From positions 1 through 37,766 of the forward strand of contig CALUYX010000006.1 in the NCBI GenBank assembly GCA_944325115.1: a DNA stretch of 37,766 nt. Direction: 5' to 3'. Shown here piece by piece: positions 12,379 to 28,397 of this stretch (its first letter is position 1; the number at the start of each line of letters is the position of its first letter). This DNA comes from Candidatus Gastranaerophilales bacterium. GTDB lineage: Bacteria > Cyanobacteriota > Vampirovibrionia > Gastranaerophilales > Gastranaerophilaceae. The notes under the pieces were generated by a model. The model did no database searches. It was not told where the DNA came from and was given only the letters and a program-made list of their open reading frames with translations. Made by a program: the position numbers and the translations under genes.

Positions 12379-13320
12379 TTATGCTCCTCTCATTATTTTT
12401 AATACTCTTACTAAATCCTTGTCCCAATCTCTTGGCTCAAGTTCAAAAGTCATTATCTCATTATTTTTGGGATGTGTAAAGCTGAGATAATACGACTGCA
12501 AAATCTGCCCTTGCACTTTTATCCCTCTGTATTTCTCAATTAGTGAACCTTTTGCGCCGTAGAGATTGTCGCCAAAAACAGGGTGGTTAATGGATTTTAA
12601 ATGAACTCTAATCTGATGAGTTCTTCCTGTTTTCAATTCAAGCTCAACAAGTGCCGCCCCTCTGAATTGTTCAAGCACTCTATAGTGCGTAAGTGCCGAT
12701 TTACCTTCGCCCTCAGGCGCTATTTGCATTTTTACGGTACTATCCATATAATGCACAAGCGGCTTGTCAATTATTCCTTCCGTTTGGCTAAACTCGCCCA
12801 AAGCTATCGCCAAGTATTTTCTTTTTGCGCTCTTATCTCTTATTTGATTTCTCAAAGATTCTGCCGCAAAATCCGTTTTAGCAGCTAACATCAGCCCCGC
12901 AGTGTCTTTATCGAGCCTATGCACTATACCTTGCCTTAAAGGATTATCAGAATCCGAAAGTTTACCCTTGCAGTGATACAAAAGGGCGTTTACAAGCGTA
13001 TTTTCTCTTTGGTATGCGCTCGGATGAGTCAACATGCCTTTGGGCTTGTTTATAACCAACAAATCATCATCTTCGTATTTTATATCAAGCTCAATATCCT
13101 CGGGCAAAATTTCTTCTTTATGCAAAAGAAATTCCGGATTGTACTCGATAATCTCTTCACCTTTTAGCTTGTATGAAGGTTTTTTTATTTTCTTATCTAC
13201 AAGCACAAAACCTTCTTCTATGGCTTTTGTTGCGTTTTTTCTGCTTATTTTTAAAAAATCACAAAGAAAAATATCCAGCCTGAGTACGCTATCCTTTGGA
13301 CTAAGAGTTATTTTTTCCAT
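12379..13320 (-). CDS. RluD-family 23S rRNA pseudouridine synthase
   Basis: The enzyme isomerises uridine to pseudouridine in RNA. The 313-residue protein has an N-terminal S4 RNA-binding domain (about residues 10-60) and a PseudoU_synth_2 catalytic domain with HRLDKDTAG. Asp137 is the expected catalytic aspartate. The ending GRTHQIRVH motif is present. Length and layout match RluD (23S helix 69) most closely, but RluC-type specificity cannot be excluded. Its start codon overlaps the 3' end of lspA by 20 bases, implying coupled translation. Confidence 0.92.
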   Translation of the reverse strand: MEKITLSPKDSVLRLDIFLCDFLKISRKNATKAIEEGFVLVDKKIKKPSYKLKGEEIIEYNPEFLLHKEEILPEDIELDIKYEDDDLLVINKPKGMLTHPSAYQRENTLVNALLYHCKGKLSDSDNPLRQGIVHRLDKDTAGLMLAAKTDFAAESLRNQIRDKSAKRKYLAIALGEFSQTEGIIDKPLVHYMDSTVKMQIAPEGEGKSALTHYRVLEQFRGAALVELELKTGRTHQIRVHLKSINHPVFGDNLYGAKGSLIEKYRGIKVQGQILQSYYLSFTHPKNNEIMTFELEPRDWDKDLVRVLKIMRGA

Positions 13321-13804
13321 TTTTAACCCTTAAAGATAAAATATCTTCGTATAAGACCATAAATAAAAATATCAGCACCGAAGTGCAAATCATTACATCA
13401 AATGCGTTAAAAACCGCAAAATTGACAAAATTCAACTTAATATAGTCAACAACATACCCCAGAGTCATTCTCTCGTATAAATTTCCAAGAATTCCCGAAC
13501 TAAAAAAGACAAGGGCAAGAATCTTGTATTTATCATCAAAAGTAACTCTTTTATAAACATAAACAATAAGAGCACCCAAAACTAAAACTCCAAATATTGC
13601 CAAAAGATAAGGGTGACCTTCAAAAAGCGAAAATGCTCCGCCTGTATTTTTTGTAAAAACAAAAGAGGCTACTATGCTGTTTTGAGTACTCATTTGAGCA
13701 AAAGTATCTGTACATAAATCTCTTATTGTAGCACCTAATTGCCAAAGCATAACAACAGCTATGGCATAAAAAACAAACGCTCTTTTATCCTTTATTTTCA
13801 GCAT
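13301..13804 (-). CDS. lspA: Lipoprotein signal peptidase (signal peptidase II)
   Basis: LspA is an inner-membrane aspartyl protease that cleaves the signal peptide from prolipoproteins. The 167-residue protein has four hydrophobic helices. It shows NTGGAFS (the NxGxAF motif), GNLYER-type conserved segment, and the two catalytic aspartates Asp120 (VVDYI) and Asp136 (FNAFD). It overlaps the preceding secreted-protein gene by 20 bases and the rluD-type gene by 20 bases, so the three are tightly coupled. Confidence 0.95.
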   Translation of the reverse strand: MLKIKDKRAFVFYAIAVVMLWQLGATIRDLCTDTFAQMSTQNSIVASFVFTKNTGGAFSLFEGHPYLLAIFGVLVLGALIVYVYKRVTFDDKYKILALVFFSSGILGNLYERMTLGYVVDYIKLNFVNFAVFNAFDVMICTSVLIFLFMVLYEDILSLRVKNGKNNS

Positions 13805-14789
13805 TTTCCTTTTTGTCTTCTTTTTTGTTCTGTTCTGTTTTACGAATAGGGTTTATGTTGTGGTACATATTAACTCTTTGCAATAAAAACGCAAGCCCTG
13901 TCATTTCGATTTCTATCATGTTAAATTCAGGAACCTTGTCCATTTTTGTAATACCGACAGAAGCTATCGCATATTCATTGTATCCGTCTTTGTTGGCACG
14001 CACAACCCGCTCCAAAATGCCATCTTTAGGCATTTTCCTAAAGACATCTTTGGGTTCGGCACTTGGATATAAAATCTCTTCTTTACCAAGAGAAGCTACG
14101 ATTCTGCTTCCTTTTTTGGGCTTTATTTTTAATGTAAGGCAATAATCCTCGCCATATGGAGTTGAAAGAGGAGCACTAAACTCCATGGGATAATCTCTTG
14201 CAATGCCGTACTTTATTGAAGTGATTTCAGAAATTACATTATCACCGATTATTTTCCACTCGTTATTTATTTTTTGCAGATAAATAGAATAATTGCATAT
14301 GCCTTCAAGGTAGCCTGTTGATAAATCATACTCCGTAGAGATTCCCGAATTACTTTTTTCTCCTTTAACGGTTGCTCTTGTAGTATCTACAATGTTTACT
14401 ACCGCTTTATCACCATAAAAATCTATCTTTTCTACGTCAGTTTTATATGATAAATCTTCATACGCATCATATGCCTCCTGCATCATTTTTACCAACGTAT
14501 CATATTTAAAACCGTCAAAACTTCTGTAGTTTTTATCGTAAAGCTTTGCCAGTTCTTCAACATTGTGTTCGTTTGAATACTTATTCAGCTTCCATATTAC
14601 TTCTTTTACACCTTTTAAATCCTCTTTTGCGAGTTTTTTCTGCTCACGCTCAGCGTTTTTCTTTGCAATATGTTTTTCTATTTTATTTTTAAATGTTGCT
14701 TTCTCTTTTTCTTTATTAACAAAAGAATAAGCATATGCATTTGAAGTCAGCATAGATAGGATTATTAATGTTGTCAGAAGTTTTTTCAT
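13785..14789 (-). CDS. Secreted protein with an NTF2-like central region
   Basis: This 334-residue protein opens with a clear Sec signal peptide (MKKLLTTLIILSMLTSNAYA, likely cut after AYA). A Lys/Glu-rich helix follows, then a segment at about 60-190 resembling an NTF2/SnoaL-like cone: a helical start (KYSNEHNVEELAKLYDKNY), a DTLVKMM helix, and strands ending NNEWKIIGD. The C-terminal half is beta-rich, and the tail is highly charged (NKKEDKKENAENKG). I do not recognise a named family. The start has AAGGAAAATAAG upstream. It leads an operon with lspA and the rluD-type gene. Confidence 0.75.
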   Translation of the reverse strand: MKKLLTTLIILSMLTSNAYAYSFVNKEKEKATFKNKIEKHIAKKNAEREQKKLAKEDLKGVKEVIWKLNKYSNEHNVEELAKLYDKNYRSFDGFKYDTLVKMMQEAYDAYEDLSYKTDVEKIDFYGDKAVVNIVDTTRATVKGEKSNSGISTEYDLSTGYLEGICNYSIYLQKINNEWKIIGDNVISEITSIKYGIARDYPMEFSAPLSTPYGEDYCLTLKIKPKKGSRIVASLGKEEILYPSAEPKDVFRKMPKDGILERVVRANKDGYNEYAIASVGITKMDKVPEFNMIEIEMTGLAFLLQRVNMYHNINPIRKTEQNKKEDKKENAENKG

Positions 14790-14822
14790 CTTATTTTCCT
14801 TGTGGTATTAATATTGTCCTTA

Positions 14823-15437
14823 TTATCTCATAAAAATCATATAATACTTTGTTGCACCATAATATAGTATTACTTGCCAATAATCGGTACCTAACTCGTT
14901 TACATCAATGTATGATTTTGGCGGAGGCGTTCTTTGTGTTTGTTTTGAAAAAATTCTACCCACGGTATTTTTTGTCTTTTGGCAAATATTTTGCCATAGC
15001 GTAAGCTTGCGCTCAGGCACGTATCTTGCATAAAACGCAGGGTCTACAATGTCTTTTTCATAGACAGGAATAATGTATTTAACCTTGCCGTTTGTTTTAA
15101 ACAAAACATAAGATTTTCCGTCTTTTTCTCTTGGGGTTAAAAGATAATACCCGGGTTCAATCACGGTATTTTTAAAAACAAAGCGAATTGCCGTCCTAAA
15201 CAAAGGATAAGGTGCATACATGTATTTTGTATATTCTTCACTTTGATACGGGTCAAGATTAAAAATATATGAAAAATCAGCCTCAGGAAGCTTTTCATAA
15301 ATTTCCTGATACTTTTGGTTTTCTTTTTGAATTTGGTTCTCATTTGCTAAAACAGCATTTAAAGAAACAAAACTAAAGCTTAAAAATAAAAGCAAAGCTA
15401 ACAAAAATATTTTCTTGATTTTTATGAAGTTTGCCAT
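14823..15437 (-). CDS. Secreted or membrane-anchored protein of unknown function
   Basis: This 204-residue protein has an N-terminal hydrophobic signal (about residues 8-31, ending NAVLA). Aromatic-rich, mostly beta mature sequence follows (YLLTPREKDGKSYVLFK, DYWQVILYYGATKYYMIF). I recognise no family. An AAGGGGG precedes the ATG at 15437 and supports the start. The gene is 33 bases ahead of the other secreted protein on the same strand and probably shares its transcript. Its start region overlaps the promoter of the divergent Maf-type gene. Confidence 0.7.
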   Translation of the reverse strand: MANFIKIKKIFLLALLLFLSFSFVSLNAVLANENQIQKENQKYQEIYEKLPEADFSYIFNLDPYQSEEYTKYMYAPYPLFRTAIRFVFKNTVIEPGYYLLTPREKDGKSYVLFKTNGKVKYIIPVYEKDIVDPAFYARYVPERKLTLWQNICQKTKNTVGRIFSKQTQRTPPPKSYIDVNELGTDYWQVILYYGATKYYMIFMR

Positions 15438-15460
15438 ATCTACCCCCTTAATGGTAACAT
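15431..15460 (+). promoter_or_regulatory. Promoter of the Maf-type gene, leaderless transcript
   Basis: TTGCCA (15431-15436) and TAACAT (15455-15460) are 18 bases apart. The last -10 base lies 7 bases before the ATG at 15468, so transcription would begin at about 15467 and leave no leader. The -35 box overlaps the start codon of the divergent secreted-protein gene, which makes the two transcription units potentially competitive. Confidence 0.5.
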
Positions 15461-15467
15461 AAGAATT

Positions 15468-17375
15468 ATGGAAAATAAAGTGTTGAGCGCAAATCTTAAT
15501 GCCATAGCAAAATATGATAAAGCGCTTTGTGATGAAATTTTAAGAATAAATAAAGTAAAATCAACTTTTGAACTCATACAAAACCAAAACGGCGAATACA
15601 ACCTCGTTTTCAATTCTTGCGTATTACATTCAAGCGAAAACGCAAAAAAAGAAGCGTCGGATATTGTTGATAAAATCACTGACCCCGAAAACAAAAATTC
15701 CGTAAGAATAATCTGGGGCTTAGGGCTTGGCTATCTTGCAGATGAATTTATTTCAAAAGTTCAAGGGGTAATTATTATTTTTGAACCCAACCTTGAAATT
15801 TTAAGAAGCGTTTTTGAAATACTTGAATTTAGTGAAAATTTATCTAAAAAAAATGTGCTTGTAGTAAATACTATAGATAAACTTCTTGAATGGATTGACA
15901 TTTTGGCGGATAAAGAAACAAAAATTACAATTTCTTTTCTGACTTCATATTTAAACCTGTTTAAAGAAGATATATATAAAACAGCAAAAACAGTTGAACG
16001 CATAAGGGGTGAAAAGCAGGCAAATACAAACACTATAAACAAAATAGCCCCTCTTGCCACTATAAACACCCTCTTTAGTCTTGATAAAATACTAAAAACT
16101 CCCTTGGTAAAATCACTTGAGGGTATTTTTGACGGAAAATGCGCTCTTATTGCTTCATCGGGACCATCTCTTGAAGAGAACATTGAAACAATTAAACAAA
16201 ACAGAGATAAGTTTATACTTTTTGCGGTTGGTCCGTCTTTAAAATTACTTGATAATCACGGTATAAAACCTGATTTTCTGTGCATTGTAGAGGCAATGGA
16301 TACAAGAGGACAAATAGAGGGAATTGACATAAGCAGCACAAATCTCATATTTGAGCCTTTTTCAAATCCATACTTATGGGAACTGAATGTAAAAAACAGA
16401 TTTTTATTCTTTTCCCGTGACAATTTCTTAAACGACTGGTTAGCCCAGACTCTTAACATTGACATCTCAAACACAAAAAGTGTCGGAACCGTTTCGTATT
16501 GTGCACTATCGAGCGCTAAAATAATGGGATTTAAAAAAATCATACTCTGCGGTCAAAATTTAGCCTTTAAAGACGGCAAATGCTACGCAAAAGGTAGTGC
16601 CTATGAAGATTTAGAGTGCATATTAAACCCTGCAACCAATAAATTTGAAATAAGAGCGAAAGATTTTAAACAATACGAGCAAAAGCTTCTGGGCTCAAAA
16701 CTTGTAAACTTAAAGCGCGCAGAATCCTATGCAGAAAACTACATTACACGTCTAAATAAAACACTATATACTGTAGTCGGGCAAAAAGGCGAAATGCTGC
16801 CCACACAAGCTTGTTATGCACTTTTTATTAAGCATTTTGAACAATTTGCAAAGGATAATCCGCAAATTACATACATAAATTCTTCAACAGGAGGGGCTCA
16901 GATAAACGGCTTTGAAAACATGACTCTTGAAGAAGCGCTTGTAGATTGCAAAAATACGGAACGCGCAGACATAAAGTTTGAAATACCAAATTACGATATT
17001 GAAAAATTTAATCTTGCAAAAGAAAGCTTGCTGCAAAATCTGCTTAGGATTAAAAGTACTGTAGATATTGCGCTAAAATATCAGGATGAATACAACAGAG
17101 AGTTTGCAAGAAGAAAGGCATTTACAAAAAATACCGATAAAATTGAAGAAAAAATTATCAAAATTTTATCTGATTTTATAAAAAACAATTACCCAAACCC
17201 TACTATATATTTTCTTTGCGCATCATCCACCAACGGATATTTTGAAAATTTGAAAAAAATCAAGGCAAATCAAAACCCTATAGACGCAGAAGAACTTGTA
17301 TCTTTTAACCTAAAATTACTAAAAAATTTAAAAAGAAGGATTAACAGGGCAATAAGGTATCTATCTGATAAATAA
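15468..17375 (+). CDS. Motility-associated glycosyltransferase-like protein (Maf, DUF115)
   Basis: This 635-residue soluble protein has the DUF115/MAF_flag10 layout. An N-terminal Rossmann-like part carries WGLGLGYL near residue 83 and IIIFEPNLE near 102. The conserved core has SGPSLEENI near 231, FAVGPSLKLL and KPDFLCIVEAMD. A helical C-terminal region follows. Maf proteins transfer pseudaminic or legionaminic-type sugars to flagellin in Campylobacter, Helicobacter and Aeromonas, so flagellin glycosylation is the likely role. No nonulosonic-acid synthesis genes or flagellin gene are in the window to confirm it. The gene lacks an SD. Its last 15 bases overlap the 3' end of the convergent CheW-type gene. 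Confidence 0.88.
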   Translation: MENKVLSANLNAIAKYDKALCDEILRINKVKSTFELIQNQNGEYNLVFNSCVLHSSENAKKEASDIVDKITDPENKNSVRIIWGLGLGYLADEFISKVQGVIIIFEPNLEILRSVFEILEFSENLSKKNVLVVNTIDKLLEWIDILADKETKITISFLTSYLNLFKEDIYKTAKTVERIRGEKQANTNTINKIAPLATINTLFSLDKILKTPLVKSLEGIFDGKCALIASSGPSLEENIETIKQNRDKFILFAVGPSLKLLDNHGIKPDFLCIVEAMDTRGQIEGIDISSTNLIFEPFSNPYLWELNVKNRFLFFSRDNFLNDWLAQTLNIDISNTKSVGTVSYCALSSAKIMGFKKIILCGQNLAFKDGKCYAKGSAYEDLECILNPATNKFEIRAKDFKQYEQKLLGSKLVNLKRAESYAENYITRLNKTLYTVVGQKGEMLPTQACYALFIKHFEQFAKDNPQITYINSSTGGAQINGFENMTLEEALVDCKNTERADIKFEIPNYDIEKFNLAKESLLQNLLRIKSTVDIALKYQDEYNREFARRKAFTKNTDKIEEKIIKILSDFIKNNYPNPTIYFLCASSTNGYFENLKKIKANQNPIDAEELVSFNLKLLKNLKRRINRAIRYLSDK

Positions 17376-18404
17376 TTTGTCATTTGACAACATATCAGGA
17401 ACATTTATTACCAGATAAATTTCACCATCTTTTACATATTGAGTAATCTCACATCTGCCCTCTTGTTTTTTTAACAAGCGTAGTTCGTCAGGTTTTATTT
17501 GTATATTTTCGCTTATTGCATCGGCAAGAATTCCTATTTTAAACTCATCGGAATCCAGAATTATAATAGTTCCCGAACCGCTATAGGGCAGTTTTTGGGA
17601 ATGAAAATAATTTTTTATATCAACAATACAAACAAAATCTCCCTTTATATTTACAAGCCCCAGAATAAAATCAGGCGTACAGGGAACTTTTATCATTTTT
17701 GTTTCTTGCAGTTTATAAAAACCCCTGATATCGTTCATCCTTATACAGTATCTGTTTTCACCCACAAAGAAAGAAACAAATTCGTCATTGTCGTTTAATA
17801 CCGTATACGGATTTTTATTTGTTTTTTCAAGGTACTCGAGCTTTCTTTTGTGTAATATTTCCAATGATTTTTCATCTTTTGGCAAGAACTCGCCCGCATC
17901 AAATTGACCGTTCTCATCCGTATGCTCCAAAACTCTGTTACTCAACGCTTCCAGATTTATAATTCCGCAGTTGGTATTTTCACTGTTGTAGATGCACTCT
18001 ATAAAGTTACAAGCACTGTTATACGGAGTATTTTGAAGTTTTGAAAGCTCTACTCTTTTTATGTCGGTGACTTTATTTACTATTACGCCAAAAACATTTT
18101 CCCTAACTTTTAATATTACAATCATGGAATTTACATCATAAGGTTCTCTTTTGATGTTTAAAATCGACTTAATGTCAACTATACTTATTACCTTATCATC
18201 ATATTCAAACAGTCCTACTATATGCGAAGGAAGCTTCTCGGGTCTTGAAAGCTCCACAAATTTTAAAATTTCAAGAACATTTTTAGAATCAAAAGCATAC
18301 GAATCCTGCCCTATGGTAACTATTGTATATATCTTGTCACCTGTAGGAACAATACTGTTAATCTCATTATCCAGCGCAACTATATTGTTTTCAATTTCAC
18401 TCAC
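17361..18404 (-). CDS. Double CheW-domain coupling protein
   Basis: This 347-residue protein contains two CheW domains, at about residues 22-160 (DSYAFDSKNVLEILK...VGLFEYDDKVISIVDI) and 208-340 (RYCIRMNDIRGFYKL...LGLVNIKGDFVCIVDI). A charged linker joins them. CheW domains link chemoreceptors to CheA, so a double unit could bridge two array elements. The start is GTG, set by AAGG nine bases upstream, which lies in the stop region of the REC-GGDEF gene six bases away. The two form an operon facing away from the MCP-CheA genes. Confidence 0.9.
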   Translation of the reverse strand: MSEIENNIVALDNEINSIVPTGDKIYTIVTIGQDSYAFDSKNVLEILKFVELSRPEKLPSHIVGLFEYDDKVISIVDIKSILNIKREPYDVNSMIVILKVRENVFGVIVNKVTDIKRVELSKLQNTPYNSACNFIECIYNSENTNCGIINLEALSNRVLEHTDENGQFDAGEFLPKDEKSLEILHKRKLEYLEKTNKNPYTVLNDNDEFVSFFVGENRYCIRMNDIRGFYKLQETKMIKVPCTPDFILGLVNIKGDFVCIVDIKNYFHSQKLPYSGSGTIIILDSDEFKIGILADAISENIQIKPDELRLLKKQEGRCEITQYVKDGEIYLVINVPDMLSNDKLFIR

Positions 18405-18410
18405 GGTATT

Positions 18411-19808
18411 CTACCTTATAACTATGTCCTCTTTTGCATGCCTTACTTCATCCAGCACATCATAAACCGCATCAATATATTCATAGTAACTTTTGTGCTC
18501 TTCGGCAAGCATTAGCGCGCCTATTTTGACACTGACATCTCCATCTTCATTTATATTGGTCAAAGACGGGTCTTCGATTTGAGAAACTATATACTCAAGG
18601 GCTTCTTTTGACCTTTTGATATCAGAATTTGTCATCAGGATTGCAAAAATATCATCCTGATTTCTGTACACAAAGTCACCGTCACTTAAGTATCTGCTGA
18701 GCAAATTTGAAATTTTAGCAATTATGATATCGCAATACTCTCCGCCAAATTGCTTTTCAAGCCCCTCAAGAGAATCAATTTCCATAAAAGCAAGGCACAT
18801 GGGAGAAGAATTTCTCTTATGCCAGTTATACTCGTAACTCAAAATCCTGTCAAAGTCTAACTGGGTGTACATTTTTCTTGGGTTTGTGCCGTTTGGGTTA
18901 TCCTTGCTGTAAACCTTAAAATATCTGAGTCGCATTATATGCTCAACCAAATCTTTTATTGTGCCGACCAATTTAAGTTCTTGTGAGCCAAGATTATTTT
19001 TGGCATATATGCAAAAGTTTCCTATTATTTTCGAATTTGAATTAATTTCATATTCATATTTAATTGTAAAATCTTCAAGTTTTTCTACCTTAAAAGTCTT
19101 ATCTTTTTCCAGCAGAACATTCTCTGTGCAATTTTTGCAATTTATTCTGTTTTTTATATTTTCCACAACCTCATAACTTAATTCGGAATTAACGGTATCA
19201 AAAAACAATTCTGCCTTGCCGGCTTCATCCTTAAAACAAATAAGCGCAGTATCATACTTAAAATAATGATATAGTGTTTTAAAGATTTTTATGGAAAGAA
19301 TGTTTGAATCTCCATCTACTTCTTTGATAGAATTAAATTCTTTTATCAAATCTCCTTTTAAATTTGTTCCCTGCGGCAAAACGGTAAGATTTTTTGCCTT
19401 TTGATTTAAAAGAGAAGTCTTTACCTGCAAACTGACAGGCATCTGCTCCATAATATTATTGCAAACAGCTACAATATCCTCCTCGGAACTGTTTTTATCT
19501 ATATAAGCATTTGCGCCAGAACGATAAGCCCAGAACTTATCTATATTTTTATTTAAAACAGAATACATTATAACCGGAATATTTTTTGCACATTCATCAG
19601 ATTTTATCATTCTGCACAACTCATACCCTCCGGGCTCGGGCATAAGTATATCAAGAAGAATTAAATCCGGAACTTCCGAGTATACAAGATTTTGTATATC
19701 AAATGTGCTGCCTGAATAAACGCAGACCATACCTGCTTTTCGCAGCATATTTGAAACATTTAATGCATCATCACTGTTATCATCTATTATGAGTACTTTT
19801 TTTGCCAT
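18411..19808 (-). CDS. Response regulator with degenerate GGDEF domain
   Basis: The N-terminal receiver (about residues 3-120) is complete: Asp9/Asp10, phospho-acceptor Asp53 (LLDILMPEPG), Ser83 and Lys105. A middle region (about 150-290) may form a GAF-like sensor with a small Cys-rich patch (NCKNCTEN). The C-terminal GGDEF-like domain (about 310-460) keeps the first metal-site Asp (MEID, 345), but the signature GG[DE]EF reads NQDDI (383-387). It should therefore not make cyclic-di-GMP, and may bind nucleotide or act as an interaction domain. No clear SD precedes the ATG. It shares an operon with the CheW protein and is divergent from the MCP-CheA genes. Confidence 0.88.
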   Translation of the reverse strand: MAKKVLIIDDNSDDALNVSNMLRKAGMVCVYSGSTFDIQNLVYSEVPDLILLDILMPEPGGYELCRMIKSDECAKNIPVIMYSVLNKNIDKFWAYRSGANAYIDKNSSEEDIVAVCNNIMEQMPVSLQVKTSLLNQKAKNLTVLPQGTNLKGDLIKEFNSIKEVDGDSNILSIKIFKTLYHYFKYDTALICFKDEAGKAELFFDTVNSELSYEVVENIKNRINCKNCTENVLLEKDKTFKVEKLEDFTIKYEYEINSNSKIIGNFCIYAKNNLGSQELKLVGTIKDLVEHIMRLRYFKVYSKDNPNGTNPRKMYTQLDFDRILSYEYNWHKRNSSPMCLAFMEIDSLEGLEKQFGGEYCDIIIAKISNLLSRYLSDGDFVYRNQDDIFAILMTNSDIKRSKEALEYIVSQIEDPSLTNINEDGDVSVKIGALMLAEEHKSYYEYIDAVYDVLDEVRHAKEDIVIR

Positions 19809-19874
19809 TGATTTAAAAATTTTATATAATTAGTCGTATAAAATTATACATTATTTTTTAAAAAAAGGGGATTT

Positions 19875-20927
19875 ATGTCAAAACAAATCAAACAAAAGAA
19901 CGGTATAAATGACCATCTTGCAAATAAACAAACTATAGATTTAATAATTATTTTACTGATTTTTGTCTTTGTATTTTTTGTAGTAGAGTTCGCAAATATG
20001 TCCCCAACTATAACGGGCGGAACGCTTGTACTGCTGTTTTGTCTTACTATCGTTGCTTTTGAGGCAACCAAAAAGCAGTTCAAGAAAAAAGCAAGCAGCG
20101 CAATAAATGAACTTATAGAAAATGCTCTTGAAAATGCAAAAAAAATCGAGGGAGCAACTTCAATTCAAAAAGAAAACATAAATCTCACTTTTGCAAAACT
20201 CTCAAATATAAAATTGCTTATAGAAAATCTGAAAAACCAAGGCTCAGACTTGTGTGAAATAATAGGAAACACAAAACAAAAGGCGATTGATTCACTCAAC
20301 TATACAAATACAGAATACGATGCAGTTAAAGCAAACATAGAAAAAATGTTTACCATAAGGCATAAAATACAAACAATTGCAGAGTTAATCCTTGAATTAT
20401 CTGACTTTATTCAATCTATTTCATCCACAATCGGGCTTGTTGAAGACATAGCCGAACAAACCAACCTTCTTGCTCTAAACGCTGCGGTTGAGGCAGCTCG
20501 TGCAGGTGAGCACGGTAAGGGCTTTGCAATTGTAGCGGGTGAAATCAGAAAACTTGCCGACGAATCAAAACAGGCAACAACTAAAATCACATCGTTAATT
20601 ACTAACATTCAGCAAACTGCAAACTCAACCGTTCTTGCAACAGAAGAAGGTACAAAAGAAGTAGAATCAGGTATCGAACTTGCGCATAACATAGGCTCAA
20701 ACATTGAACAGCTTATTCTCTTAATGAATGAAATTTCTCAGGGAATAAACGATATGACAGGCTCTTCCAAAAAAATCACAAACGATACCACTACAACCGA
20801 AAATGCCGTATCTGAAATTAATTCAATGCTTGAAAATAACTACAAGGCAACTGAAGAAAGTTTCCAAAACATAGAAAGCCTTCAAACATTATCTAAAAAT
20901 TTCAGAGCCAACATAAGTGAGGAATAG
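19875..20927 (+). CDS. Methyl-accepting chemotaxis protein with short membrane hairpin
   Basis: This 350-residue chemoreceptor has two adjacent membrane helices (about 21-39 and 48-64) with only about eight residues between them. It therefore has no periplasmic ligand domain. The cytoplasmic signalling tip is unmistakable ([20 protein letters not shown] near 192-211, then [18 protein letters not shown]). With no outer sensor it probably reads a membrane or cytosolic cue, or serves as a scaffold for CheA. No HAMP domain is obvious. An AAAGGGGATTT supports the start. The cheA-type gene follows 9 bases after its stop. Confidence 0.93.
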
Positions 20928-20936
20928 CACTGAGAT

Positions 20937-23900
20937 ATGGATTTTCTGGATGATGAACTCGATGAGATTCTGAATATTTTCCAGCAGGAAGGCGGAGAAA
21001 TTCTGCAATCCATGGACAAAAATCTTTTTGCCCTTGAGAAAGACCCGCACAATCAGGATATCCTTATACAGCTTGCGCGCGATGCCCACAGCCTTAAGGG
21101 TTCGGCAAGAATGCTCGGTTTTGAGGATATACAAAAAGTTTCACACAAAATTGAAGACATTTTGGGTCTTATAAAAGACAATAAGATTGAATCCTCGCAA
21201 GAAATAACAGATACAATTTCCGAAGCACTTAATCATATACAGGTTTTAATAAATAAAACCGTTGAAAATAAACAAGAATACAAAACGCATGATACTCAGG
21301 ATTATATAGATAAACTTGAAAAAATTGCATCCTGCGCACCCGATGGAACTGTTCGCACAAAAGAATGCGTACAGTGTCCCGATGATGTAAAAAAACTTTT
21401 ATCAAAACTGAATAAAATTGAAGAACTAATCGTACAGATGATATACATATTCTCATCAGCACGACAAAATAACAATTTCTCCGAAATACAAATCATAAAA
21501 TCTCCGCTTGCAGAACTAAACGCCATAATCCGCGAACTCAATATAAAACCTTTATTGGAACTTGTGACAGACGCGGGAAGATACATATGTGCTTTTGGAG
21601 ATAAAAAACCCGATGAAAATGAAATCTTGCAGCTAAATTCAAAAATTGATTCAATTGAAGAATTTTTTACGGACTATTGCAAACAAAAAGGGATACAAAC
21701 ACAAAATTATTTTGAAATTGCAAATGAGCTTATATCCAATAATGACAGCAACGATATAAAGAAAAAAAAGTCTGAAGACAAAAAAATAATAGCAGATTTA
21801 ATCGACAGAATATACGAAAAATTAAGTCTGCTTGAGATAAATCTTGAATTCCTGCCGGATATAAAAGACCTGCTTTCTCAGGTTCTTACAAAAATCCAAA
21901 ACATAGAAATAAAAAAGATTTTCGAAACAACTCTAAGAATATTAAACCTATATCAAACCAATTCCAAAAATCTTGAAAGTGATACACTTGAAGCAATAAA
22001 AGAAATTTGTGAAAACACAAGAAAAATTTTTGAACCCGAAGGACTAAAGCCTGAAGAAAGAAAAATAGAGATTGAACTTTTGCTCCAAAAAATAACAATT
22101 GTTGAGCAAATGTCAAAACTAAACATTGCAAGACCAAAAGATACAAAAAAACTCCCTAAGACTGAAAAATCAGGTCAAGACTGGATAAGTGCGATTGATA
22201 CCAGCGACATAAAAACTCTTCGCATAGATTCATTTAAACTGGACAAACTGGTAAATCAAATCGGAGATTTGATTGTCACAAGAATAAAAACAAACGAACA
22301 TTTAAGCGTTGCAAAAAACATTCAAAATGAACTTCTCGAGTGGCAAAAAAGTTTCAACAAAATGGGCTATTATATAAAGTATTTTGACAGAAAATATATA
22401 ACAGGTCCTTCTTTCGGCACAGTAGTTGACCCTCGTGCCATAGCAGCGTTTAACAAACAACTTATGGTCTTACAAAATTACCATGCGGAAAAAATGGTAA
22501 GTCTGATTAAAGAAACATCAGATTTATTTAAACAAATGCAAGAGAATGACTCCAAATTAAACTCTGCAACAAGCGAAATAGAGGGCATGGTAAAGAACAT
22601 GCGCATTTTGCCTCTATCTACGATATTTCACCTTTTCCCGAGAATGGTACACAATATAGCCAAAGAAAAAGGTAAGCAAATAGAGTTTGTGACAGAGGGT
22701 TCAGATGTTGCAGCAGATAAAAAAATCATAGAAGAGATTAAAATTCCCCTGATTCATATACTCAGAAATTCAATAGACCACGGAATAGAGCTGCCAAAAG
22801 AAAGAAAAGAGCTTGGGAAAAATCCCGTGGGCAAAATTACAATAAGCGCAAAACACAGAGAAAATAAAATTGTAATCAATGTCACAGATGACGGCAGGGG
22901 GCTTGATGTTGAAAAAATTAAACAAAAAGCTCTTGAAAAAGGGTTATTAACACCTGAAGAATTAGAAAACATAGACGAAGAACACCTTGTGAATCTGGTA
23001 TTTTACCCCGGATTTACAACGGGAGACGCGGTAACGGAGCTGTCAGGAAGAGGCTTGGGACTTGATATAGTTCATACAAAAATTTCTCAGCTCAACGGCA
23101 GGGTAGATATTTTCAGCGAATTTAGAAAAGGAACCATGGTCACAATAGAGCTGCCTGCAACCATGGCAACAATAAAAACTTTTATTGTAAGCGAACAAAA
23201 CCAGCTCTACGCCATACCGACATCGTCAATTAAAACAGTTCTTAGAATTGATACAACAGATGTCTTTGAAAGAGACGGCAAAAATTATTTTGTACACAAT
23301 GACGATGTAATACCTGTGTACACGCTCTCACAAATACTTGAGCTTGAAAATAAGCCCCGTCAGGCAAACAAATATACTCTAATGATTGTAAGGTCAGAAA
23401 GCTCAACAATAGGAATAATAATAGAAAAACTTGTGTGCGACCAAGAAGTTTTACACAAAAAACTTGAAGCGCCTTTATTTAAAGTTAAAAATATTTCCGG
23501 CATAACGACTCTTGCAAACGGCGAAATTTGTCTGATTTTAAATGTCGGCGATATGTTCTCCGCAACTCTTCCAAAGAAAATAAGCTCAAGAATTATTGCC
23601 TCAAATAAAGCAATAAAAATGAAAGAAAACTACTCGCACAAAATTCTTGTAGTTGACGATTCTCTTACAACAAGGACACTGCAAAAAAATATCCTGACAA
23701 GCTACGGTTACAGAGTACAAATAGCCACAAATGCGCCGGATGCACTGACCAAAATGCAAAAAGAAAATTTTGACCTCATTATTACAGATAACGAAATGCC
23801 TATTATGAGCGGGCTTGATTTTGTAAAAGAAATAAGAAAAGAAGCCATATGGGAAAATATTCCCATAATAATTTTAACTTCCATGCCTGAATCCAAATGG

Positions 23901-24011
23901 GGCAAGCAATTTAAAGAAGCCGGAGCTCAAGCCTACATTCAAAAAGACCACTTTGAACAAGAAAGCTTCATAAGGTGTGTAGATAGTTTCTTAAAAAAGG
24001 CTGAGCGATGA
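20937..24011 (+). CDS. cheA: Hybrid CheA histidine kinase with C-terminal receiver
   Basis: The 1024-residue protein begins with an Hpt domain (AHSLKGSARM, phospho-His51). A long helical linker (about 110-410) follows, then a P3 dimerisation segment (about 420-560), and a CheA-type ATPase (N box ILRNSIDHGIELP, G1 TDDGRGL, G2 LSGRGLGLDIV). Next are a CheW-like P5 domain (about 740-870) and a receiver domain (about 901-1024, phospho-Asp951 in TDNEMP). Hybrid CheA-REC kinases occur in cyanobacterial phototaxis/pilus systems and in FrzE. Built-in REC could replace a separate CheY or act as a phosphate sink. The following HD gene overlaps its stop by ATGA. Confidence 0.94.
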   Translation: MDFLDDELDEILNIFQQEGGEILQSMDKNLFALEKDPHNQDILIQLARDAHSLKGSARMLGFEDIQKVSHKIEDILGLIKDNKIESSQEITDTISEALNHIQVLINKTVENKQEYKTHDTQDYIDKLEKIASCAPDGTVRTKECVQCPDDVKKLLSKLNKIEELIVQMIYIFSSARQNNNFSEIQIIKSPLAELNAIIRELNIKPLLELVTDAGRYICAFGDKKPDENEILQLNSKIDSIEEFFTDYCKQKGIQTQNYFEIANELISNNDSNDIKKKKSEDKKIIADLIDRIYEKLSLLEINLEFLPDIKDLLSQVLTKIQNIEIKKIFETTLRILNLYQTNSKNLESDTLEAIKEICENTRKIFEPEGLKPEERKIEIELLLQKITIVEQMSKLNIARPKDTKKLPKTEKSGQDWISAIDTSDIKTLRIDSFKLDKLVNQIGDLIVTRIKTNEHLSVAKNIQNELLEWQKSFNKMGYYIKYFDRKYITGPSFGTVVDPRAIAAFNKQLMVLQNYHAEKMVSLIKETSDLFKQMQENDSKLNSATSEIEGMVKNMRILPLSTIFHLFPRMVHNIAKEKGKQIEFVTEGSDVAADKKIIEEIKIPLIHILRNSIDHGIELPKERKELGKNPVGKITISAKHRENKIVINVTDDGRGLDVEKIKQKALEKGLLTPEELENIDEEHLVNLVFYPGFTTGDAVTELSGRGLGLDIVHTKISQLNGRVDIFSEFRKGTMVTIELPATMATIKTFIVSEQNQLYAIPTSSIKTVLRIDTTDVFERDGKNYFVHNDDVIPVYTLSQILELENKPRQANKYTLMIVRSESSTIGIIIEKLVCDQEVLHKKLEAPLFKVKNISGITTLANGEICLILNVGDMFSATLPKKISSRIIASNKAIKMKENYSHKILVVDDSLTTRTLQKNILTSYGYRVQIATNAPDALTKMQKENFDLIITDNEMPIMSGLDFVKEIRKEAIWENIPIIILTSMPESKWGKQFKEAGAQAYIQKDHFEQESFIRCVDSFLKKAER

Positions 24012-24619
24012 AAATTGAAGATTATATAAAAAACTATATTACTTCAAAAGACGAACTTGAACATGCAAACTATGTAAGTAATTTAAGCCTTAAACTATAT
24101 AGCGAATTAAATAAAATCTTTCCCGAAAATCAATTTTTAAAATTTGACAACGCACAAACTCTTATATCATACAGCGCATTATTGCATGATGTAGGCAATT
24201 TTTTTGGCGGATTAAATGCAAAAAAGCCTCATAACAAAACAGGAGCCAAACTTGTACTTGAAAACAAAATCGATAATCTGAAAGAAGATGAGGTAAAAAT
24301 AATAGCCGCTTCGATAAGATATCACAGAGGCTCAAAACCAAAAGACGGAAAACACAAACTTTATAGCTCACTAAAACAAGAAGATAAAAATACCGTTCTT
24401 TTAATAGCATCTATAATTCGAATAGCGGATTCTCTGGACAGATTTCATATGCAAACAGCCCAAAATATCGTCCTGACGTATGATTTTGACAATCGTATTT
24501 TGACTTTGAATCCGGGGGTAAATATAATGTTCAATGGGGAAATAAAAAGAGTTTTTAACAAAAAGAAGACTCTTTTTGAGGACGTATTTAGGCTAAAAAT
24601 TTACCTTAAAAATGAATGA
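24008..24619 (+). CDS. HD-domain protein (Ppx/GppA C-terminal-like)
   Basis: This 203-residue protein has an HD-superfamily core. SALLHDVGNF carries the His60-Asp61 pair, SIRYHRGSKP a further metal-ligand His106, and IASIIRIADSLDRF the conserved final Asp. The order and spacing resemble the HD domain attached to exopolyphosphatase/GppA proteins more than HD-GYP phosphodiesterases. The substrate is unknown; phosphohydrolysis of a nucleotide or polyphosphate-related compound is the family expectation. It overlaps the cheA-type gene by 4 bases and the TPR gene by 8, so it is part of the chemosensory operon. Confidence 0.82.
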   Translation: MKIEDYIKNYITSKDELEHANYVSNLSLKLYSELNKIFPENQFLKFDNAQTLISYSALLHDVGNFFGGLNAKKPHNKTGAKLVLENKIDNLKEDEVKIIAASIRYHRGSKPKDGKHKLYSSLKQEDKNTVLLIASIIRIADSLDRFHMQTAQNIVLTYDFDNRILTLNPGVNIMFNGEIKRVFNKKKTLFEDVFRLKIYLKNE

Positions 24620-25337
24620 TTTAGACAAAAAAACAGCTTGTATTATTTTTTCTGTAATGTTTTGCGGTTTTTCTATCACCAATCCGTCTTTTTGCACGGA
24701 AAAAATTAACGCCGGCGTAGTGTATGAATTTTATCTTGATTTAAAAAATCAAATTCCTTCCGCAAATAAAATAACAACCGAAAACCTCCCCAAAATAAGC
24801 GATGAAGATATAAATCTTGCATTCTACAATGGTTATCGCCCTCTTAATATGCTGTCGCTAAAAAATACATACACCATTATGAACACGGTAAAAAAACATC
24901 AAAGATACGAAACAATACCCGAACAATACACAATTTCACTAAAACCAAACAATGCCATTACAAAAGAAGCGCAACCCACATACGAGGAACTTTTCGCTCT
25001 GGCAATGAATTTAAAAAATAAAGAAAAGTACCACGATGCCATTGAAAATATAAATAAAGCGATTGAAAAAAATCCGCTCTCAATGGAGGCACATTTTCTA
25101 AAAGGAGATATATTAAGGCAAAACGGTAATTACAGAGATTCCATAACGGAATATGTGTCAGCGATAAATATTGACCCGTCTTGCACAGACGCCTATTTTA
25201 ATATTGCAAAAATTCTTGAGAACAGCGACAACAAAGAGCTGGCGCTTGAATATTACAGATATGCATATTCTACAAAACCTGACGATTACGAGATAAGAAA
25301 CATTATACTGAGCTACGAAAAAGCAAACATTAATTAG
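24612..25337 (+). CDS. Secreted or anchored TPR-repeat protein
   Basis: The 241-residue protein has an N-terminal hydrophobic stretch (about residues 9-24) that reads as a signal peptide or anchor. A linker follows, then about three tetratricopeptide repeats at 125-235 (AIENINKAIEKNP, DSITEYVSAINIDPS, LALEYYRYAYSTKPD). TPRs mediate protein contacts, so an envelope-located scaffold or pilotin-like part is plausible. It overlaps the HD gene by ATGAATGA and is the last gene of the MCP-CheA operon. It converges with the WYL-type gene with an 8-base overlap. Confidence 0.82.
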   Translation: MNDLDKKTACIIFSVMFCGFSITNPSFCTEKINAGVVYEFYLDLKNQIPSANKITTENLPKISDEDINLAFYNGYRPLNMLSLKNTYTIMNTVKKHQRYETIPEQYTISLKPNNAITKEAQPTYEELFALAMNLKNKEKYHDAIENINKAIEKNPLSMEAHFLKGDILRQNGNYRDSITEYVSAINIDPSCTDAYFNIAKILENSDNKELALEYYRYAYSTKPDDYEIRNIILSYEKANIN

Positions 25338-26220
25338 CTTTTACTTTAAAATTATCGCTCATTTTATCCAGCATATTTTTAAATTTTTCTATATCACCCT
25401 TAGGAGAAACTATTCTGCAAAGTTTTCCGTATCTTACGAGTCTTTTAAACAATTCGTTCTTATCTTCAAAGTTATTGGAAACAACCATAAAATCTTCGCC
25501 CGTTTTAATAACTCTTTCACCCTCATACAGGCTATAAGAGTTTTTCAATCTGCCTCTTAATTCAAATACGGTATAAGGTGCAAAATTCGAAGCAAGAGAA
25601 CTTTTAGGAGTAGAGTAAATTTCTTTTATGTTTTCCAACAGCAAAAGCTCGTAGTTTTTTGAATCTTCATTAAACACATGTACAAAAACAGCGTTGTCAC
25701 AATATTTAAAAGAAATATGAGAAATATTCATTTTTCTATCCCCATAGAGGACTTTGATTTTTGAGTTATCATAACCAAACTTCAAGAGTTTAGATATTTT
25801 ATCTCTAAACAAAAGAGAAATATGGTTTATCTTTGCAACTCCGTTTGAAAAACCTCTGTATTTCTCATAACCGCTGCCGTCAGTAAGAGAGAGTATCTTT
25901 GACAGAGCTGTTTTTAAATCATCTCTTATGTTTTCGCCATATAAGTTTAGTCCCAAATTTTCAAATGCGGCAAGGAAATAAAAATCCTCATCAGATAAAT
26001 CAAGCGAAAAAGGAACGCTTTCGAGCTCAAATTTTCCTCTTCTTTTTCTTATTACACATCCGGATTTCCTCAGAGTTTTAAAATATTTTGCAATTGTTTC
26101 TCTGCTTAGGATAATATCTTCACCATAAAGCTCATCACAAATTTCATCCAACGAATGAGGTCCTTTGTAGAGCATTTTAAATATTTTCATTATTCTGTAA
26201 GAAGCGTCAATTTTTCTCAA
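25330..26220 (-). CDS. HTH transcriptional regulator, WYL-type partner
   Basis: The N-terminal winged helix (about residues 5-60: SLDEICDELYGEDIILSRET, KYFKTLRKSGCVI) is followed by a body similar in layout to the upstream WYL protein (SDEDFYFLAAFENLG, KIKVLYGDRKMNISHISFKY). The C-terminal segment ends in FKRLVRYGKLCRIVSPKG. A canonical WYL triad is not clear, so it is a divergent member. The start is TTG at 26220, supported by AGGGAG eight bases upstream and by a TTGA overlap with the preceding stop. Such pairs resemble PafB/PafC. The ligand and target are unknown. Confidence 0.75.
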   Translation of the reverse strand: MRKIDASYRIMKIFKMLYKGPHSLDEICDELYGEDIILSRETIAKYFKTLRKSGCVIRKRRGKFELESVPFSLDLSDEDFYFLAAFENLGLNLYGENIRDDLKTALSKILSLTDGSGYEKYRGFSNGVAKINHISLLFRDKISKLLKFGYDNSKIKVLYGDRKMNISHISFKYCDNAVFVHVFNEDSKNYELLLLENIKEIYSTPKSSLASNFAPYTVFELRGRLKNSYSLYEGERVIKTGEDFMVVSNNFEDKNELFKRLVRYGKLCRIVSPKGDIEKFKNMLDKMSDNFKVKAN

Positions 26221-27134
26221 TTATACATCTCCCTTACATCTGAAATAATATTCTTTATTTTGGTCAAAATCTTCTTATCTTCAACATAAATAAGATTCTC
26301 GCCAAAAGAAAGAAGTCTTTGAACAAAATTAAATTCATTCAAATATTCAGCCCTTATCTGAACATAATCCGGAGTAATTTTTATAACTTTTTCATAATCT
26401 TCAAGCTCAAGAGGAGAATTCTTTGTCCTTAAAATACTATACACGCAGCTTTTCTGATTCACATTCGGTTCGCTGTTCATTTTAGTAATTTTAATAATTT
26501 TCTCTATCTTATCGGCTCTTAAATAAACAACACCCTTGTACTCATCACAACTGCACCATAGGTATAATTTATCGTTCTTTTTTGAATATTTTAACTCTAA
26601 ACACTTAAGCGTCATTTCCCTTGGCGGTCTTGAGGGAGAATTATACAAAATAACTATCTCGTTTTTGTGTTTACAGTGGACATCCAACTCTCTCAGTAAA
26701 TTAAAATCCGTTTTAAGAAAATTACCAAAATTTAAAAGCTCTTCCACATGTTCTTTTGAATCGATAAGCTTTGAAATTTTCTCAAAAGTTTTATATATGG
26801 ATATTATGTATCTGAAATCCATAAAATAAAACATTGCTTTCTTTGCAATAGAAAGTGCTTTTATTTCACTGTTTGTAAGTTTAATCTTAATCGGGTTCAG
26901 TTTGAGTTCGTAACAGTAATTATTACTCTTATCTCCTGATTTTATATCAAAACCAACGGCTTTAAGAGTATTTATATCAAGGGTAATTGTATCGGGTGTA
27001 ACATTTTTAAGATTAGGGTTCTTTGCTATCTGTTCCAATATTTGCGATTTTGAAACAGAGCCTTTTATCAAAAGCTGCAGCACAAATAATATTCTCAAAC
27101 CCGTCTGGGCAATGTTATTATTTGTTTTTAACAT
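26217..27134 (-). CDS. WYL-domain transcriptional regulator
   Basis: This 305-residue protein has an N-terminal HTH (about residues 8-65: SVSKSQILEQIAKNP, DTITLDINTLKAVGFDIK). A helical segment follows, then a WYL-like Sm-fold sensor (about 160-215: VILYNSPSRPPREMTLKCLE, KLYLWCSCDEYKGVVYLRAD) and a WCX-like C-terminal extension. The exact W-Y-L triad is altered (LYLWCSC). WYL regulators sense nucleic acid or nucleotide ligands in phage defence and DNA damage responses, but nothing nearby shows a defence locus. It is divergent from S1 and translationally coupled to the second HTH gene. A GGGG precedes the ATG. Confidence 0.78.
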   Translation of the reverse strand: MLKTNNNIAQTGLRILFVLQLLIKGSVSKSQILEQIAKNPNLKNVTPDTITLDINTLKAVGFDIKSGDKSNNYCYELKLNPIKIKLTNSEIKALSIAKKAMFYFMDFRYIISIYKTFEKISKLIDSKEHVEELLNFGNFLKTDFNLLRELDVHCKHKNEIVILYNSPSRPPREMTLKCLELKYSKKNDKLYLWCSCDEYKGVVYLRADKIEKIIKITKMNSEPNVNQKSCVYSILRTKNSPLELEDYEKVIKITPDYVQIRAEYLNEFNFVQRLLSFGENLIYVEDKKILTKIKNIISDVREMYN

Positions 27135-27288
27135 AAGATATACCCCAAAAAAATATAATACTAGCTTATCCCATAACTATAGTAACAAAAAATTTGTCAT
27201 ATAACATAAATTTTTACTTTTCTTCTCATCCATGCAACCTATTTATTAAGAAATATTAACCAAAAAACCTGTACTAAGTTCAAAAATT

Positions 27289-27297
27289 TGTTATAAT
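27289..27297 (+). promoter_or_regulatory. Extended -10 promoter of the S1 gene
   Basis: TG-T-TATAAT is an exact extended -10 box. Transcription would start near 27304, giving a leader of about 30 bases that carries the AAGGAG at 27316-27321. No good -35 box is needed or seen at 17 bases. The 198-base gap from 27135 also holds the promoter of the divergent WYL-type pair, which I cannot place with confidence. Confidence 0.7.
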
Positions 27298-27332
27298 CAT
27301 AATGGATGATAATACAAGGAGACTTTTTGACT

Positions 27333-28397
27333 ATGTGCCCATCAAACCAGCTTAGCGACAAAGAGTATGAAGAGCTTCTTAAAAAATATGAGTATAACTT
27401 TCAAAAGGGCGATTTGGTAAAAGGTGTTGTATGCACTTACGATAGCGAAGGTGCAATAGTTGACATTGGAGCAAAAACAAACGCCATATGCCCTGAAAAA
27501 GAAGCTAAACTTAACAAAGACGACAACATTGAAGAAATTCTTGAAAAAGGTAAAGAGTACGAATTTTTGATAATCAAAGAAGAGGACGAAGACGGAAGAT
27601 TTACCGTATCTTACAGAAAAGTTGCAATGGCATACAACTGGAAGGTTCTTGAAGAAGCAAAAACTCAAGATAAAGTTGTCGAAGGAACTGTGGTACAAGC
27701 AGTTAAAGGCGGCGTTTTGGTTGATGTTATGGGCATAAGAGGTTTCGTACCGTCAAGCCACTTAAGGTCAAAAGACCCTGATAACATAATCAATCAAAAA
27801 ATCGAGCTTAAAATATTAAGCATGGATATGTCACAAAATAACTTCATATTATCTAATAAAAAAGTTTATACGGATAATCTTGAAGAAATTAAAAAGGATG
27901 TATTCGGACAACTTGAAGTAGGTGCCGTTGTAAAAGGCGAAGTAGTAAGAATAGCAGACTTTGGCGCATTTATTGATATCGGCGGAATCGACGGACTTCT
28001 TCCGCTTTCACAAATCTCATGGCGTTGGGTAGACCATCCTTGCGACATTTTAAAAGTCGGAGAAAAAATAGATGTTGAAATCATAGGAATTGACCTGGAC
28101 AAACAAAGAGTTTCTCTGAGCCTCAAAAATCTTGAACCCGACCCGTGGGTTGAAGCCAAAGGCAAAATAACAGAAGGCGCAAAGGTAAAAGGCAAAATCA
28201 CACGTATCAAGCATTTTGGTGCTTTTGTTGAAGTTTACCCTTGTGTTGAAGCACTTTTACCTCAGGCAGAACTTGTTCAGTATCAAAATGAGCACGGAAC
28301 AATACTTGATGTAGGCGATGAAATAGATACTGTTATACTAAAATTCAACCCTGACGATAAAAGAATCTCCTTAAGCGTTACACAAAACGAAGAATAA
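27333..28397 (+). CDS. rpsA: 30S ribosomal protein S1
   Basis: S1 binds mRNA at the 30S subunit and helps unfold it for initiation. The protein has about four S1 RNA-binding domains, at roughly 25-90, 110-175, 194-265 and 280-354. Domain 3 (VVRIADFGAFIDIGGIDGLLPLSQIS) and domain 4 (KITRIKHFGAFVEVYP) are canonical. Four domains is shorter than the six of E. coli and nearer cyanobacterial or low-GC Gram-positive types. I prefer ATG 27333, which is 11 bases after AAGGAG. In-frame TTG 27327 (5 bases away) and ATG 27306 (upstream of the SD) are alternatives. Confidence 0.93.
   Translation: MCPSNQLSDKEYEELLKKYEYNFQKGDLVKGVVCTYDSEGAIVDIGAKTNAICPEKEAKLNKDDNIEEILEKGKEYEFLIIKEEDEDGRFTVSYRKVAMAYNWKVLEEAKTQDKVVEGTVVQAVKGGVLVDVMGIRGFVPSSHLRSKDPDNIINQKIELKILSMDMSQNNFILSNKKVYTDNLEEIKKDVFGQLEVGAVVKGEVVRIADFGAFIDIGGIDGLLPLSQISWRWVDHPCDILKVGEKIDVEIIGIDLDKQRVSLSLKNLEPDPWVEAKGKITEGAKVKGKITRIKHFGAFVEVYPCVEALLPQAELVQYQNEHGTILDVGDEIDTVILKFNPDDKRISLSVTQNEE

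Follow-up and report, generated by a model that had tools for sequence, protein, structure and literature searches.

A Chemosensory Module with a Degenerate GGDEF Regulator in the Gastranaerophilales

Among the known systems most similar to the locus reported here is the Wsp pathway of Pseudomonas, for which the roles of WspE, WspB/WspD and WspR have been set out, together with a Burkholderia variant, the "H-system", in which WspH replaces WspR (PMC8552884). CheY-like and multiple Hpt domains are typical of the CheA kinases of both the alternative cellular functions (ACF) and the type IV pilus (Tfp) classes, and Tfp CheAs are characterized by multiple Hpt domains, a C-terminal receiver (REC) domain and an extended P3 (PMC10782961); a PATAN-type regulator is found in cyanobacterial tax operons (PMC5812497). 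For the Gastranaerophilales, which are non-photosynthetic gut relatives of the Cyanobacteria, flagella and chemotaxis genes have been mentioned in general terms only (PMC5877343, PMC4451040), and no description of an order-wide module was found in the literature searched. Here we describe six genes at positions 17361-25337 of a 37,766-nucleotide stretch (the window) from an uncultured member of this order, whose closest relatives in genome collections bear the names Candidatus Gastranaerophilales or Candidatus Galligastranaerophilus. The window corresponds to contig C6 of a draft assembly of 1.54 Mb in 114 contigs (84% complete, 3% contaminated). The six genes probably represent a Wsp-like chemosensory module that operates without adaptation, with cyclic di-GMP (c-di-GMP) as its ancestral output and, in the genus of the window, a pseudo-cyclase with a non-catalytic output.

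Gene content and conservation of the module

The six genes form a divergent unit. On the reverse strand are a double CheW coupler of 347 aa with a GTG start (17361..18404; PF01584 matched twice, 1.6e-39) and the output regulator (18411..19808), in which Pfam matches, the orthologue alignment and an AlphaFold model delimit a REC domain (residues 5-115, 1.5e-17), a middle domain called GAF-like solely on its predicted topology (residues ~150-300) and a degenerate GGDEF domain (residues 314-465, 4.7e-14). On the forward strand, a methyl-accepting chemotaxis protein (MCP; 19875..20927; MCPsignal 2.7e-37) with two transmembrane helices and neither an extracytoplasmic nor a cytoplasmic sensor domain is followed by a hybrid CheA of 1024 aa (20937..24011; Hpt, weak H-kinase_dim, HATPase, CheW and REC matches, the C-terminal REC at residues 903-1005), an HD-domain protein of the Ppx/GppA domain-III type (24008..24619; Ppx-GppA_III 9.4e-11, HD 4.6e-9) and a TPR protein with an N-terminal hydrophobic signal-like segment (24612..25337; TPR matches). 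All genes and domains listed in the initial annotation, which had been made from the sequence alone, were thereby recovered, as were the two gene overlaps it had named, read directly from the sequence as ATGA at 24008-24011 (cheA/HD) and ATGAATGA at 24612-24619 (HD/TPR). The order CheA, HD, TPR and the matching gene boundaries are common to relatives within the genus.

Across the order, the same divergent arrangement (double CheW and REC-GGDEF in one direction; MCP, CheA and, variably, HD in the other) was observed in the genus, elsewhere in its family and in six more families, seven families in all, and the module has probably been inherited vertically within the Gastranaerophilales. All genomes compared are drafts, with presence tables compiled by hand from search outputs, and all trees are quick trees with support from the Shimodaira-Hasegawa-like approximate likelihood ratio test (SH-aLRT). 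Every fully readable locus of the genus has the six genes intact, and there the ratios of nonsynonymous to synonymous substitution (dN/dS) are 0.06 for the MCP, 0.06 for CheA, 0.13 for the pseudo-GGDEF domain and 0.26 for the TPR protein.

Genome-wide searches returned one MCP, one CheA and one double CheW, the last being the only CheW protein of the genome besides the P5 domain of CheA. No CheR and no CheB were found at the locus or anywhere else in this genome, and CheB was found in none of 15 genus genomes; as several of these are 99% complete, its absence is not merely a draft gap. The earlier proposal that cheR, cheB and a stand-alone cheY are missing therefore held genome-wide for the first two and, for cheY, at the island only, as the genome encodes two lone REC proteins of ~120 aa and a third REC protein of 202 aa. 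The two shorter proteins, on contigs C38 and C9, were rejected as the missing CheY because each adjoins its own histidine kinase; the third, an N-terminal extension joined to REC, lies directly after fliM-fliN. CheR-family matches of 68-108 bits were obtained in six genus genomes, but the four retrieved sequences are CheR-like methyltransferases of ~250 aa with unrelated neighbouring genes; they differ from the canonical CheR-CheB pair of genome G046 and were not accepted as true CheR. These four proteins (L297-L300) carry FFRDD and CSDGSEPYSLA-type motifs and are patchy in the genus, away from che genes.

The MCPs of the module are 331-380 aa long, all of them without a sensor domain, and their signalling tip is virtually invariant (identity within the genus, 99%). 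Of 46 orthologues, 45 lack the strict enteric methylation consensus, which is no more than consistent with methylation-free working, because some CheR-linked MCPs of other bacteria likewise lack it. A receptor with neither a sensor domain nor methylation enzymes raises the question of how sensing and adaptation happen. In the alignment of CheA orthologues, the phosphorylatable histidine H51 of the Hpt domain is invariant, the N, G1, F and G2 boxes are kept and the receiver residues D951 and K1003 are conserved. The AlphaFold model of CheA (predicted local distance difference test score, pLDDT, 77) places three helix bundles ahead of P3, with HxxKG in the first only, and an extended P3 at residues 432-555; P4-P5 match solved CheA structures. 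As modelled, the island CheA would thus have all of the multiple-Hpt-like bundles, C-terminal REC and extended P3 of the Tfp class. Trees of the P3-P5 core unite the module CheAs in a single clade (SH-aLRT 100), distinct from the canonical CheAs of the order, which go with CheR/CheB systems and fall into separate clades.

The output regulator and its HD partner

For the regulator, 34 sequences were aligned, 21 from outside the genus and 13 readable copies from within it, and the phosphorylation residues of REC are kept in nearly all of them. All 21 sequences from outside the genus have the complete cyclase set D-I-D-x-F-K-x-x-N-D-x-Y-G-H ... G-D, an RKTD-type I-site and RYGGEE, with Pfam GGDEF matches of 1e-42 to 1e-46 in the regulators of G050 and G022. 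Such a full GGEEF active site with an I-site makes it very probable that the ancestral regulator was a cyclase producing c-di-GMP. In all 13 genus copies, R[NS][QED][DE][DN][IVT]F replaces RYGGEE, and the metal site and the I-site are lost together. The window regulator reads YRNQDDIF where RYGGEE[FILV] would be expected (RNQDDIF, residues 382-388, at 18645..18665 on the reverse strand), which bears out the degenerate GGDEF first described, and its Mg site and RxxD I-site are gone as well; the signature of an active cyclase (GG[DE]EF, Mg ligands, I-site) is thus absent. That the degeneracy is specific to this genus is invisible from the window alone.

The degenerate domain is not in free decay: it is more conserved than any other part of the protein, and its dN/dS of ~0.13 in the genus indicates purifying selection; the genus regulator is a constrained pseudo-cyclase. 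A long stem branch leads to the genus pseudo-GGDEFs in the GGDEF tree. The AlphaFold model of the regulator (pLDDT 81.5) gave PleD, WspR (3bre, 3i5a) and DgcR as best Foldseek matches. With 5-10 GGDEF matches in each family genome, c-di-GMP signalling very probably exists in the group, and an Rfam scan of the window returned no c-di-GMP riboswitch or other Rfam element.

The HD protein is free-standing and aligns to the C-terminal HD domain of Ppx/GppA (6.7e-11). Its metal ligands H19, H60-D61, H75, H106 and D141, which follow the H...HD...H...H...D pattern of the HD phosphohydrolase superfamily, are invariant in 30 of 30 homologues, and the HD proteins form a clade apart from the full-length Ppx proteins of the class (SH-aLRT 97). 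The first description as HD phosphohydrolase-like can be refined: the protein is related to the C-terminal HD domain of Ppx/GppA but stands alone. Twelve family genomes have HD and lack the hybrid CheA, and in each of them HD lies divergently beside a ~220-aa stand-alone GGDEF protein, which ties it to the cyclase rather than to CheA. A pattern search found R[YF]GGEE intact in 7 of the 8 remnant GGDEFs analysed in the tree; these nest inside the island GGDEF clade (SH-aLRT 97), and the HDs of CheA-less genomes nest inside the island HDs (SH-aLRT 99). Most simply read, these genomes lost the chemosensory kit together with the REC-GAF input and retained the cyclase-HD pair. HD and TPR had both been called true operon members. 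For HD this is borne out by linkage throughout the order: every readable locus of the genus has HD next after CheA, as do 16 of ~32 informative loci outside it. For TPR, whose N-terminus is fast-evolving, it is true locally only, the gene being linked in each readable locus of the genus and otherwise just in G040 and G050.

In the mechanism that we propose, the sensor-less membrane MCP and the fused double CheW would hold the hybrid CheA in a receptor array. CheA would autophosphorylate and pass its phosphate to the REC domain of the divergently encoded regulator, with its own C-terminal REC acting as a phosphate sink or second acceptor. In the ancestral form, represented by most other genera, phosphorylation would control c-di-GMP synthesis by the intact GGEEF domain, and HD would belong to the same nucleotide pathway, where it is probably a metal-dependent phosphohydrolase that opposes or shapes the signal. 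In the genus, phosphorylated CheA would still drive REC, and the pseudo-GGDEF would serve as a protein-interaction or regulatory domain; having no catalytic site, the regulator would have to deliver a non-catalytic output through protein contact, most plausibly with HD or with a flagellar or surface target. The phosphorelay steps are drawn by analogy from the component families, as in Wsp (PMC8552884), and the final contact is one that we infer. A narrower proposal, which we consider doubtful, is that rewiring has turned the genus array from c-di-GMP production to the control of a nucleotide hydrolase, with CheA phosphorylating a pseudo-cyclase that binds and gates HD; if true, this would be a chemosensory class free of adaptation and of sensor domains, whose output is the removal or reading of a signalling nucleotide.

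Flagella, pili and alternative outputs

It was speculated in the initial annotation that the system might control a nucleotide signal rather than flagellar rotation. For the ancestral module this is favoured by the intact GGEEF in 21 of 34 regulators, by HD staying with the cyclase and by the loss of the FliM peptide described below, but a link to flagella remains. Flagellar chemotaxis in disguise, in which CheA would phosphorylate the REC protein of the fliM-fliN operon acting at the switch complex, with the degenerate regulator as a phosphate sink or scaffold, is a possible explanation, if a somewhat unlikely one. Outside the genus, the hybrid CheA co-occurs with FliM (15/20 versus 1/19 genera; Fisher p = 1e-5, kinship ignored). 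The N-extended REC protein (G000:C12:1246-1854, forward strand), which in the genus directly follows fliM and fliN with an 8-bp overlap and has all receiver residues, tracks FliM (12/12; p = 5e-7, again ignoring kinship), strong homologues being absent where FliM is absent, and the module adjoins flagellar and Maf-type glycosyltransferase genes. However, in the genus and in nine other genera of the family, the N-terminus of FliM is without the LSQxEIDxLL CheY-binding peptide that most sister families keep (loci L223-L241, L086-L112), which makes textbook CheY-FliM motor control unlikely; as the FliM N-terminus of this genome is cut by a contig end, the result for the genus rests on its relatives. 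Five non-genus genera (G016/G055, G026, G035, G040 and G050) have the module but neither FliM nor the N-extended REC protein, so flagellar behaviour may be one target but not an obligatory one; in G053, FliM and the REC protein are present and CheA is missing. A role for the island CheA as flagellar kinase via FliM is weakened both by the loss of the FliM motif and by the genomes with CheA and no FliM.

We regard as unlikely a cyanobacterial-type Tfp system (Pix/Pil/Hmp-like) that steers twitching by type IV pili and has the REC-GGDEF protein in a secondary regulatory role. It would account for the Tfp-like domain features of CheA (PMC10782961), and PilT is present in nearly all module-bearing genomes; PilT is, however, near-universal in the order whether or not the module is present and so does not discriminate, leaving the pilus control first suggested without support, and no PATAN-type regulator was recognised at the island. 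In a CheA tree without oxygenic cyanobacterial sequences, the approximately unbiased (AU) test gave p = 0.098 for the module CheA joining Acinetobacter ChpA, which neither backs nor rejects Tfp kinship. It is very improbable that the module is a decaying relic with a dead cyclase, no adaptation and no sensor: the catalytic site and I-site are indeed lost, the MCP has no sensor domain and CheA is absent from about half of the family, but the intact genus loci, the low dN/dS of MCP, CheA and pseudo-GGDEF, and the invariant HD ligands argue otherwise.

Several observations count against our preferred reading of a Wsp-like module with a c-di-GMP ancestry. The association of hybrid CheA with FliM is one, as it allows a flagellar role. 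The CheA tree, the same one without oxygenic cyanobacterial sequences, does not group the module CheA with WspE, although the AU test (p = 0.12 for the two joining) neither backs nor rejects that kinship; the AU test was marginal (p 0.08) for a strict clade of island and remnant GGDEFs against all paralogues. Survival of the HD-GGDEF pair is probably one event in one clade, kept over about ten genera, and, outside the genus, roughly half of the hybrid-CheA loci have no adjacent HD. In ~10 loci of the order the module has no regulator at the island (the rest of those genomes was not searched for it), so a cyclase is not the sole conceivable output.

The searches yielded further observations. 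The N-terminus of the N-extended REC protein is conserved (ETIDLIYKIA) and vaguely like the CheY-binding peptide that FliM has lost here. G053, the sole non-genus family genome with FliM and without CheA, lacks PilT and keeps the fliM-associated REC protein. A second FliI/SctN-type ATPase, in addition to the FliI of the window, is encoded at G000:C12:18614-19900 (T3SS_ATPase_C 1.6e-28), and its homologues lie near the module, a few kb downstream, in G016 and G055, both without FliM, hinting at a non-flagellar export ATPase. At G000:C38:7505-11301, a GAF/HisKA kinase, a lone REC (120 aa) and an MshEN plus degenerate-looking T2SSE ATPase are found together, possibly a pilus-ATPase regulatory unit with its own kinase.

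Within the window, the regulator and MCP genes are separated by a divergent intergenic region of 66 bp (19809..19874), where a promoter-like TTGCCA-17-TATAAT on the forward strand (19802-19830) is only suggestive, as the number of such sites in a promoter scan equalled chance expectation. The flanks at 13301-17375 (lspA, two unknown proteins and a Maf/MptE-like glycosyltransferase) and 25330-28397 (two WYL/HTH-like regulators and a four-S1-domain protein) are syntenic with the module within the genus and, in part, in G040 and G050.

Comparison with known chemosensory systems

The loci of the order provide a natural series for a change of output: the full kit with an intact cyclase, the full kit with a pseudo-cyclase, the kit without a cyclase, and the cyclase with HD but without the kit. 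HD itself is predicted to partner a GGDEF-based signal, in gut bacteria that are common yet have barely been studied experimentally.

The module departs from the flagellar (F) class: it has no CheR or CheB, its CheA has no P2 and no classical P3, and the CheY-binding peptide is absent from the FliMs of the genus and family. With the cyanobacterial Tfp systems (Pix/tax operons), which come from a related phylum, it shares the hybrid CheA-REC and, as modelled, several Hpt-like bundles and an extended P3; its regulator, in contrast, is a REC-GGDEF protein, no PATAN response regulator was recognised at the locus, and the CheA comparison was made without oxygenic cyanobacterial sequences. PleD and DgcR, the best structural matches besides WspR, have the same architecture of a REC-controlled GGDEF, but are active and have no chemosensory linkage. 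The HD protein resembles the C-terminal HD domain of Ppx/GppA enzymes (e.g. the exopolyphosphatase 8jgo), from which it differs in being free-standing, in its full H-HD-H-H-D ligand set and in its separate clade.

Wsp (WspA-WspR of Pseudomonas, ACF class) has several features in common with the module. In both, an MCP, two CheW domains, a hybrid CheA-REC and a REC-GGDEF output are encoded together; in the module, the CheA with its C-terminal REC is accompanied by two couplers in one protein, and a multidomain REC regulator with GGDEF is present at the island in most loci. Orthologues outside the genus have GGEEF and an I-site, and the modelled output fold resembles WspR. Unlike Wsp, the module has no dedicated WspC (CheR) or WspF (CheB), as judged from the locus and its own genome and, for CheB, from the 15 genus genomes; its two CheWs are fused, its MCP has no sensory domain, its regulator has a predicted GAF-like middle domain, and it has an HD partner and a divergent gene order. 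In the genus the cyclase has lost its active-site residues, and the module CheAs form a clade of their own. Plain membership of Wsp was rejected because CheR and CheB are missing and kinship of CheA with WspE is not established, the tree not grouping the two; the module probably works like Wsp but is not classed as Wsp. A known parallel to the genus form is the Burkholderia H-system, with which it shares a Wsp-type core and an output lacking, here by prediction, diguanylate cyclase activity; there, a histidine kinase replaces the GGDEF domain, whereas in the genus the GGDEF fold persists, as a constrained pseudo-domain, alongside an HD partner.

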